In this document: piece after piece, positions 49,062 through 52,184 of the stretch
Numbering within the stretch: position 1 is the first letter of the stretch
Layout of the letters: each line of letters starts with the position of its first letter
Origin: Ureaplasma canigenitalium ATCC 51252
GTDB lineage: Bacteria > Bacillota_I > Bacilli_A > Mycoplasmatales > Mycoplasmoidaceae
Assembly (NCBI RefSeq): GCF_000712165.1
Contig: NZ_JONZ01000004.1
Coordinates: 62,001 to 126,000, forward strand
DNA: 64,000 nt
Direction: 5' to 3'
The notes under the pieces: generated by a model
What the model was told of the DNA's origin: nothing
Seen by the model: only the letters and a program-made list of their open reading frames with translations
Database searches by the model: none
Made by a program: the position numbers and the translations under genes

Positions 49062-49150
49062 GGAAACATACTCAAGTGGTTAAGAGGGCACCCTGCTAAG
49101 GTGTTAGGTCGTTCTGCGGCGCGTGGGTTCGAATCCCACTGTTTCCGCCA
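49062..49150 (+). tRNA. tRNA-Ser (GCU anticodon)
   Basis: Acceptor stem GGAAACA/TGTTTCC, a D arm with GTGGTTAAGAGG, anticodon loop CTGCTAA giving GCT, a long variable arm typical of class II tRNA-Ser, T arm GTGGGTTCGAATCCCAC and an encoded GCCA end. Confidence 0.96.
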
Positions 49151-49259: not shown

Positions 49260-49523
49260 ATGACATCGAAGAAATATACAATTAAGGTAGAAATAACTGT
49301 TTTTATTAAATCAATAACTTTTCTTGTCAATGTAGCAAGTGAATTTTCATCTAACATCAAAATAAATGCCAACGGTCATACCGCAGATGCTAAGTCAATC
49401 ATTAATGTAATGGCACTTGGTATCAAGGAAAATACAGAAATTGAAGTAATTGCAGAAGGTGACGACGAACAGGATGCTCTTCGCAAAATCGATAAAGTCC
49501 TAAAAGAACAATCTTTAATCTAG
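49260..49523 (+). CDS. HPr-like protein lacking the phosphorylated histidine
   Basis: 87-residue protein clearly of the HPr fold (TFLVNVASEF, KSIINVMALGI, GDDEQDALRKIDKVL). In functional HPr, His15 in GIHARPA accepts phosphate from Enzyme I. Here position 15 is Phe (ITVFIKSIT) and the next Arg is Lys, while Ser46 and its context (AKSIINVM) are intact. Loss of His15 with retention of Ser46 is also the pattern of Crh in Bacillus. It starts at ATG after AAAGG, in its own transcript (TATAAT at 49223-49228), followed by tkt. Function is inferred, not shown. Confidence 0.82.
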   Translation: MTSKKYTIKVEITVFIKSITFLVNVASEFSSNIKINANGHTADAKSIINVMALGIKENTEIEVIAEGDDEQDALRKIDKVLKEQSLI

Positions 49524-49578: not shown

Positions 49579-51537
49579 ATGAATAGATATGTTAATGCGA
49601 TGCGTTCTCTCGCTTTGCAGGCTATTAACCATGCTGGTTCAGGTCATATGGGAATGGCGATTTCCGCAGCGCCAATTTTTTATATTTTGTATAAAAGTTT
49701 AATGACCATTTCAAAAGATCATCCGAAGTGATTTAATCGCGACCGTATGGTATTAAGTGCTGGTCATGGATGTATGTCGCTTTATCCTGTTTTTTATTTT
49801 GCTAATATGATTTCGCTTGATGAAATTAAGAAATTTAGAAACGGGTCACAAATTGTTAGTGGGCATCCCGAAGCTCTTCCTAATAACTGAATTGATGCAT
49901 CAACTGGTCCTCTTGGACAAGGAGTCGCTAATTCGGTGGGAATGGCAATGGCTGAGGTATATCTTAGTGAAATTTTTAGCGAATTAAAAGGACTAGTTAA
50001 CCACTATACATATTGTGTTGTCGGTGACGGTGATATTCAAGAGGGTATTTCATACGAAGCGATGTCGCTAGCTGGTAAACTTGGTCTTAAGAAATTGATT
50101 GTGATTCACGACTCAAATGATTATCAACTTGACAGTAAAGTAAGTGATGTGTTTACTGAAAATCTTGAAGAGCGAATGCATTCAATGAATTGAAATTACA
50201 TCAAGGTTGATAATAACCCAGAAAACATCTTTAAAGCAATTGCCGAAGCGAAGATGAAGAAAAATGTTCGTCCTACTTTTATTGAAGTTAAAACAATTAT
50301 TGGCGAAAATTTAAAATCAGAAAATTCTTTTATGGCACACGGTGGTTCAGTTTCTAAGGAAGATCTTGATGATTTTCACACTAAATCACATTTTCATTCT
50401 GAAAATTTTGAATTCCATAGTGAAATCTTTGATCATTTTTATTTTAATGTGGTTGCTCGCGGACAAAGTGCTTACGACCAATGAGAACAATTACTTGAAC
50501 AATACGAACAAACTAAACCAGAATTAACTCAATTATTTAAAAACTATATTAACGGTAATTTTGAAAATTTAGAACAATTATTGGATGAAAATAAAATTAC
50601 CAAACTAAATCAAAGTACACGTGCTTATTTAAAAGATTATTTAGGTCAGTTAAACCATCTTAAATCTTGTATGGTTTTAAGTGCTGATCTTGCTCGTTCA
50701 ACTTATACAAAAATTGGTGAAGACAGTTTTGAAATGAATCACAAAGCACCTTATGTTAAGGTTGGTATTCGAGAGCATGCTATGGCTGGAATTGCTAATG
50801 GAATTATGTATCATAGTGGTTTAAAAGCGATGTCAGGAACATTTCTTGCATTTAGTGATTATATGAAACCAGGTATTAGATTAGCAGCACTTTCTAAGTT
50901 AGCGAATATTTTTGTTTTTAGTCACGATTCTTATGCGGTAGGAGCAGATGGGCCGACTCATCAACCTATCGAGCAATTAGGAATGCTTCGTGCTATTCCT
51001 AACCTAGCTGTTTATCGTGTAGCTGATCAATATGAATTGAAATATGCATTAGTTCAAGCTTATCAATCAAAAACAAAACCACACTGTATTATTACAAGTC
51101 GCCAGAATCTTCCTGCTATTAACGAACATATTCCTAATGATTTTAAACAAGGTGCATATATTGTAAAGAGTCAGTTTAGTTTTAGTTCAAATAATGAATT
51201 TACAATAATTGCATCCGGTTCTGAAGTTTCACTTGCTCTTGAAGCCGCTCGGACTCTTTTTGAGAAAGAACACCGTAAGGTTAAGGTTATTTCTTGCTTC
51301 GAATTAAATACCTTCCTAAATCAAAACTCTAATGTCATTTCTAACATGCTTTTTGCGAATAAAAAAGTTTTGGTTATTGAAGCGAGCAATGATGCTAAGT
51401 GATACCGTTTACTTAAAAATACCAGATCAATTGATTTCATTTTAGCGAAAGATTTTGGAGAAAGCGTTGACGGTAATTCCTTAATGAAGAAGATGGGATT
51501 TAGTGTTGAAAATATCTTATCTAAACTTAAGGAGTAG
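49579..51537 (+). CDS. tkt: Transketolase
   Basis: ThDP enzyme of the pentose phosphate pathway, 652 residues. AGSGHMGMAISA gives the early catalytic His, SAGHGCMSLY follows, GDGDIQEG is the ThDP-Mg motif and the Pyr domain starts VVLSADLARST-like (MVLSADLARST), with IREHAMAGIANG. Trp codons are TGA in places. deoC follows after two bases. This helps link nucleoside sugars to glycolysis. Confidence 0.95.
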
Positions 51538-51539
51538 TT

Positions 51540-52184
51540 ATGTCGTTGAATAAATTAATTGAACACACAATTTTAAAAGCAAACACTTCATTTGAAGATA
51601 TTAAAAATCTTTGTTATGAAGCAATTGAATATGATTTTTTTGGAGTTTGTGTCAATCCAACTTTTGTGAAATATGCTAAACATTTACTAACAAATAGTAA
51701 TGTAAAAGTAGTTACTGTTATCGGTTTCCCTCTTGGTGGTAATACCATTGAAACTAAAAAATTTGAAGCACATGACGCAATTAAAAATGGTGCCGATGAA
51801 ATTGATATGGTCATTAACATTAGCCAATTATTAAATAACAATAAAGATTATTGTCTTGAAGAAATTAATGCTGTTAAAAGTGTTATTCCAAATCATACTC
51901 TTAAGGTGATTGTTGAAACTGCATTACTTGATGAAGAACACAAGAAGTTAGCAGCTGAAATTGTTAAAGAATCTAATGCAGATATTATCAAAACATCTAC
52001 AGGTTTTAGTACAGGTGGTGCGACTGAACACGATATTAAATTATTTAAGTCTATTTTGGGGGATGAAAAAGGGATTAAAGCAAGCGGCGGTATCAAAGAT
52101 TATCAAGATTTAGAAGTCTTTTTAAAAGCCGGAGCAACCCGTTTTGGTACTTCTCGAGGAGCATCTATTTTTAAGAATCGTTAA
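51540..52184 (+). CDS. deoC: Deoxyribose-phosphate aldolase
   Basis: Splits deoxyribose-5-P to glyceraldehyde-3-P and acetaldehyde. 214 residues. Catalytic elements are ADEIDMVIN (Asp), IKTSTGF (Schiff-base Lys) and KASGGI (second Lys). It ends the tkt-deoC unit before a terminator. It would act on sugars released from nucleosides imported by the BMP system. Confidence 0.96.
   Translation: MSLNKLIEHTILKANTSFEDIKNLCYEAIEYDFFGVCVNPTFVKYAKHLLTNSNVKVVTVIGFPLGGNTIETKKFEAHDAIKNGADEIDMVINISQLLNNNKDYCLEEINAVKSVIPNHTLKVIVETALLDEEHKKLAAEIVKESNADIIKTSTGFSTGGATEHDIKLFKSILGDEKGIKASGGIKDYQDLEVFLKAGATRFGTSRGASIFKNR

Follow-up and report, generated by a model that had tools for sequence, protein, structure and literature searches.

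A single HPr without His15, kept together with HprK in Ureaplasma genomes without a detected Enzyme I

Introduction

Most work on HPr treats it as a phosphocarrier, and the regulation exerted through its Ser46 is generally interpreted in terms of CcpA or of PTS activity. Crh of Bacillus is an HPr-like protein in which His15 is absent and Ser46 is kept, and it is an expected target of HprK, features which it shares with the protein described here. Crh, however, coexists as an additional paralogue with a full HPr and serves as a CcpA cofactor, whereas the protein described here is the only copy, and a LacI/CcpA-type regulator was not found in the 10 Ureaplasma genomes considered. The loop of Crh, GLQARPA, has Gln15 in an intact ARPA, against TVFIKSI in our protein; PDB entries of Crh were among the structural matches.

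HPr, sometimes together with HprK, is also kept by bacteria that have no complete PTS. The presence of HPr without ptsI in Ureaplasma is already known from Comas and colleagues, according to whom Ureaplasma urealyticum has ptsH and no ptsI (PMC2405797); the same kind of retention is described in Bartonella (PMC2405797), a complete PTS is reported to be lacking in M. hominis, which has HPr, and in U. parvum (PMC2751442), and both HPr and HprK are listed for Ca. M. girerdii (PMC4206474). The loss of His15 is not reported in these accounts, whereas here it is genus-wide and is repeated in other lineages. The Gram-negative bacteria Brucella (PMC2937029) and Xanthomonas (PMC6916182) have no PTS permease and retain PTS proteins in a regulatory role; in both, however, Enzyme I is retained and phosphotransfer is part of the regulation, while in Ureaplasma only the Ser46 branch is seen. 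HprK is conserved in nearly all Mollicutes and CcpA occurs only in Acholeplasmatales (PMC5138195). Insertion mutants of hprK in M. agalactiae grow poorly on host cells (PMC3179502), a result that we do not count as evidence since the Enzyme I status is unconfirmed. In the literature outside subscription papers we found no report of the loss of His15 in Ureaplasma or of its recurrence, which is no proof of priority, and a literature search on the phosphocarrier and glycolysis in Ureaplasma returned nothing.

The sole HPr of the source genome lacks His15

The gene under study lies in a window of 64,000 nucleotides, the whole stretch of Ureaplasma canigenitalium DNA that was analysed, and has the following features.

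49260..49523, + strand: HPr gene without the His15 codon (ptsH orthologue; product of 87 aa), the sole HPr found in the genome
49302..49304, + strand: codon 15, TTT (Phe), where HPr otherwise has the catalytic His15
49395..49397, + strand: codon 46, TCA (Ser46), the HprK phosphorylation site, in a kept DAKSIIN loop

The 87-aa open reading frame matches the PF00381 profile with 72.7 bits (curated cut-off, 23), and solved HPrs align to its product with zero gaps (1qr5, residues 3 to 86). The AlphaFold2 model (pLDDT 93.3) has the strand and helix order of HPr, and its top two PDB matches, with TM values of 0.93 to 0.94, are the HPr of the P-Ser-HPr/CcpA complex and the HPr bound to HprK. By profile, fold and gene neighbourhood alike, the protein is an HPr orthologue. 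It resembles HPr (PtsH) of Firmicutes and Mollicutes in fold, length, Ser46 loop, gene orthology and the presence of hprK in the same genome, and differs from it in that His15, Arg17, and Pro18 are missing and that no Enzyme I or EIIC was found.

Ser46 stands in the context D-A-K-S-I-I-N-V-M-A-L (loop sequence ADAKSIINVMAL). The canonical loop GIHARPA is replaced by TVFIKSI, with Gly13, His15, Ala16, Arg17, and Pro18 all substituted. Residue 17 is Lys, and the pair His15 and Arg17 that marks a phosphocarrier is thus absent; judged by its residues, the protein is predicted to have no phosphocarrier function by the known route. Its sole His is His40, which is not conserved among the Ureaplasma HPrs.

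The initial annotation of this DNA had described a gap-free alignment to HPr, Phe15, and Ser46 in a KSI context, all of which are borne out by the codons and the alignment. It had also cautioned that a sequencing error might hide a His codon and had proposed that residue 15 be read in relatives. This error is ruled out in practice by the residues of the relatives and by the change across the loop, where several positions are substituted: His15 occurs in none of the 10 Ureaplasma HPrs, in which residue 15 is Phe in three (the window protein and those of G088 and G094) and, in the other seven, Asp in five, Ile in one and Asn in one.

HPr and HprK without a detected Enzyme I in Ureaplasma

The source genome (genus Ureaplasma, 835 kb in 9 contigs, 96% complete) was considered together with its relatives in a sample of 10 Ureaplasma draft genomes that includes metagenome bins and in which neither U. 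parvum nor U. urealyticum was identified. The whole-genome profile search with PF00381 gave one match in the source genome, with no second HPr found elsewhere in it, and each of the 10 genomes has exactly one HPr. Neither the N-terminal (PF05524) nor the C-terminal (PF02896) domain of Enzyme I, nor the EIIC permease domain (PF02378), was detected in any of the 10 genomes by searches in which the positive controls were matched; regulators of the LacI family (PF00356), to which CcpA belongs, were likewise not found in them. The gene hprK is present in all 10. The HprK of the source genome has 318 residues and both the N- and C-domains, and across Ureaplasma the Walker A motif, the catalytic HG, the E-I/V-RGLG signature and GR are intact. 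Phosphofructokinase is encoded in nine of the 10 genomes, and the glycolytic signal to which HprK usually responds could therefore be present in Ureaplasma. Since Ser46 is flanked as K-S-I and the genome encodes an intact HprK, the window HPr is deemed a putative HprK substrate of the Ser46 type.

The initial annotation had left two branches: either this is the sole HPr and the PTS is dead, or it is a regulatory paralogue beside another HPr. The former holds, with one HPr, no Enzyme I or EIIC found and hprK intact, while the latter finds no second HPr in the source genome. The search for ptsI and hprK that it suggested returned no Enzyme I and an hprK gene with both domains and its motifs, and the absence of an HPr kinase, which together with complete loss of the family context would have spoken against the reading, is contradicted by hprK in every Ureaplasma genome. 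Its view of HprK and Ser46 as what remains of the function is consistent with the retention of Ser46 and of an intact hprK gene where the carrier parts are gone. The likeness to Crh that it drew stands as to logic (no His15, Ser46 kept) and does not stand as to membership (no second HPr, the loop gone, no LacI/CcpA-type regulator found); the window protein is Crh-like in outline, and it is an HPr orthologue and the only copy rather than a Crh.

Recurrent loss of His15 in the order

Ser46 is invariant in the 10 Ureaplasma HPrs, while decay has affected residue 15 and the remainder of the active-site loop alike. Their identity to the window protein ranges from 29 to 56%, all frames are open, and the HPr of G090 has Asn instead of Lys45.

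Across the order, we surveyed genomes at least 85% complete (n = 273), of which 230 have HPr and 208 have Enzyme I. Residues were read directly in 79 HPrs, 47 from genomes with Enzyme I and 31 from genomes without it, G014 being left out since its Enzyme I status is doubtful. His15 and Arg17 are kept in all 47 HPrs of the former group, including those of the divergent family f9 (28 to 40 bits). Among the 31 HPrs from genomes without detected Enzyme I, His15 is kept in 16 and lost in 15; Ser46 is kept in every one, and 30 of the 31 genomes carry hprK. Fisher's exact test for His15 against Enzyme I gives a p value of 7e-8, which ignores relatedness and treats as independent genomes that are not.

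The losses of His15 fall in at least five lineages (Ureaplasma, G040, G016, G070/G073, and G197), of which the HprK tree sets Ureaplasma, G040, G016, and G197 apart; G070 and G073, from another genus, are not in the tree. Other species without detected Enzyme I show partial changes of the loop (R17G in G206, P18L in G174, and P18W in G175) or keep it in full. Many Mycoplasmopsis-like genomes in which Enzyme I was not detected retain a complete GLHARP loop; therefore, His15 does not invariably disappear once Enzyme I is lost. The loss of His15 is genus-wide in Ureaplasma and convergent elsewhere, and it can be put down neither to a redundant paralogue nor to an error of sequencing. For annotation, an HPr without His15 in Mollicutes would predict a genome without a working PTS.

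Gene neighbourhood and the place of the missing ptsI

The genes around HPr in the window are the following.

49062-49150: tRNA-Ser (GCT), between the thioredoxin gene and HPr; ordinary
49579..51537, + strand: transketolase gene (tkt), NCBIfam NF004558 above cut-off, 55 bp downstream of HPr
51540..52184, + strand: deoxyribose-phosphate aldolase gene (deoC), TIGR00126 with 255 bits, 2 bp past tkt

The tkt gene adjoins HPr in nine of the 10 Ureaplasma genomes, and in several relatives the genes touch or overlap; deoC is the conserved next gene wherever the locus extends that far. According to the HprK tree, the sister group of Ureaplasma is genus g6, represented by G021 (support, 100/99), which has a canonical HPr and the gene order HPr, oxidoreductase, ptsI, tkt, and pfk, the last two encoding transketolase and phosphofructokinase. 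The order in Ureaplasma is HPr, tkt, and deoC, with ptsI missing where the nearest relatives bearing Enzyme I carry it. The adjacency of HPr and tkt was considered as a sign of a new function and rejected, since it also occurs in M. gallisepticum-like genomes whose HPr is normal. The order HPr-tkt-deoC suggests, without proving, a link to the pentose-phosphate route and to the breakdown of deoxynucleosides feeding glycolysis.

A probable Ser46 switch that has outlived the PTS

We think it quite probable that the Ureaplasma HPr is a vertically inherited Ser46 switch under the control of HprK which has outlived the PTS. Enzyme I and the sugar-importing enzymes II would have been lost at or before the base of Ureaplasma, and the loop that faces Enzyme I (Gly13, His15, Ala16, Arg17, and Pro18) would then have been free to decay, becoming variable among species as it is now. 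HPr itself would have been retained because HprK would still phosphorylate and dephosphorylate Ser46 according to the metabolic state, with some partner bound differently by each form of HPr. The steps read from the sequences are the single HPr, the loss of His15, the lack of detected Enzyme I and EIIC, the intact HprK motifs, and the kept fold and Ser46 loop. Beyond these, HprK presumably phosphorylates the Ureaplasma HPr at Ser46, its signal may, by analogy with other HprKs, be ATP and phosphate or glycolytic intermediates, and the output of the switch is likely to be direct contact with a protein, either an enzyme or a transporter, rather than with CcpA.

A first alternative, which we regard as unlikely, is that HPr is a relic drifting towards loss after the PTS was lost, with Ser46 kept for want of time. 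It would account for the decay of the entire active-site loop, for the HPr scores that drop to 39 to 50 bits in G090 and G091, and for the HprKs of G040 and G016, which sit on very long branches and have lost motif residues; moreover, HPr, HprK, and Enzyme I have all been lost in some Mollicutes. Against a relic, HPr and hprK persist with open frames in all 10 Ureaplasma genomes, despite their wide divergence (29 to 56% identity to the window protein), and the decay is confined to the His15 loop, with the Ser46 loop nearly invariant. A column-by-column comparison of the 15 His-less HPrs against 46 HPrs of Enzyme I-bearing genomes showed conservation breaking down at exactly columns 10, 13, 15, 16, 17, and 18, while the best-kept columns were 46, 48, and 49, which are invariant (Ser46, Ile48, and Asn49), followed by 45, 67, and 69, Lys45 being kept in 14 of the 15. 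Such a pattern would be expected if the contact with Enzyme I had been released and the contact with HprK kept. Pairwise dN/dS among the Ureaplasma HPrs is mostly 0.12 to 0.36, with two pairs at 0.54 to 0.66, and is below 1 in every computable pair, in a test that is rough since several synonymous distances are near saturation; by these mostly low values the Ureaplasma HPr is therefore still under selection, contrary to what a relic would lead one to expect.

We find it rather improbable that HPr is kept for a binding role independent of phosphorylation, as the structural or allosteric partner of an enzyme, with HprK retained for another substrate. HPr does bind non-PTS enzymes elsewhere, namely GapA (PMC12445079) and, judging by PDB titles, glycogen phosphorylase and Rsd, and G017 has hprK where HPr was not detected. 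Such a role, however, leaves the invariance of Ser46 unexplained while residues 13 to 18 of the binding surface vary, and it sits poorly with the joint loss of HPr and hprK in many genomes, which is an observed pattern rather than a formal co-loss statistic.

That the protein still carries phosphate, through another residue such as the Asp15 of five species or by means of an unrecognised enzyme replacing Enzyme I, appears highly improbable to us. Asp does replace His in five Ureaplasma species and, independently, in G197, and structures of the His15Asp HPr of E. coli are available (PDB 1cm2, 1cm3, and 3ccd); nevertheless, four species have Phe or Ile at position 15 and one has Asn, there is no other conserved His, Arg17 and Pro18 are also lost, and neither Enzyme I domains nor an EIIC acceptor was found in any of the 10 genomes. 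Equally hard to sustain is a Crh-type paralogue with a normal HPr hidden in assembly gaps, for although the source assembly has 9 contigs at 96% completeness and Crh is likewise devoid of His15 and endowed with Ser46, all 10 Ureaplasma genomes have one His-less HPr each and Enzyme I was detected in none of them, A16, R17, and P18 are kept in Crh and lost in the window protein, and the gene position matches that of the HPr of the sister genus.

Under the preferred reading of a Ser46 switch, the partner of HPr is expected to be neither CcpA nor a PTS permease because neither was found in the 10 Ureaplasma genomes. In B. subtilis, HPr phosphorylated at Ser46 binds and inhibits GapA (PMC12445079). 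Candidate partners in Ureaplasma may be glycolytic enzymes, ABC transporters, or the enzymes of the pentose and deoxynucleoside routes encoded next to HPr, and we hold no firm view among them. On a broader proposal our opinion is evenly divided: HprK and HPr would form a self-standing Ser switch, split from the PTS and CcpA at least five times in Mollicutes, which in Ureaplasma would directly control a non-PTS target, possibly the neighbouring pentose and deoxynucleoside route. If this is true, regulation through Ser46 would be the older function of HPr in these lineages and the one harder to lose. Ureaplasma offers a natural separation, where carrier function, Enzyme I, EIIC, and CcpA-type regulators were not found, and HprK and Ser46 are present in all the species examined; with no carrier function, PTS or CcpA-type regulator found, any effect of Ser46 phosphorylation therefore needs another route. 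The role of HprK in mycoplasmas without CcpA, a question raised previously (PMC5138195), thus becomes directly testable in Ureaplasma.

Other HPr and HprK variants in the order

Several genomes outside Ureaplasma show variants that we report as observations in their own right. The HPrs of G070 (L045) and G073 (L046), of genus g9 in the same family, are extremely diverged, score about 20 bits and have Thr or Ser near position 15; the Ser46 loop is kept as ANAKS or ADAKS, hprK is present, and Enzyme I was not found in these two genomes. The HPr of G197 (L150, 2976-3248) is Mycoplasmopsis-like with Asp15 (GIDALLAS) in a genome without detected Enzyme I, and its gene is followed, after 12 bp, by two genes for ABC-transporter permeases, which could hint at a target. 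The HprKs of G040 (L066) and G016 (L067), besides their very long branches, have Lys for Arg in RGLG, and that of G040 is also without the PGR loop; from these residues, the two enzymes are possibly losing one of their two activities. G017 (L070) has HprK, while HPr and Enzyme I were not detected in it, HPr being either very diverged or absent from this 81%-complete bin.

G014 (L041 and L042) carries two HPr genes, one with His15 and Arg for Ser46 located beside ptsI, and a second with His15, an altered loop, and Ser46. It was set aside as a two-HPr case since the copy without Ser46 and ptsI are on a contig of 36% GC against 29% for that of the other copy, probably a contamination. G107 (L111) presents the reverse case, with Enzyme I present, hprK not found, and His15 kept, while its Ser46 loop is altered (NAASTMS), with loss of Lys45. 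Lastly, in the M. gallisepticum-like G085 and G077 (L047 and L048), which have Enzyme I, HPr keeps His15 with Thr replacing Pro18 (GLHVRTAT).
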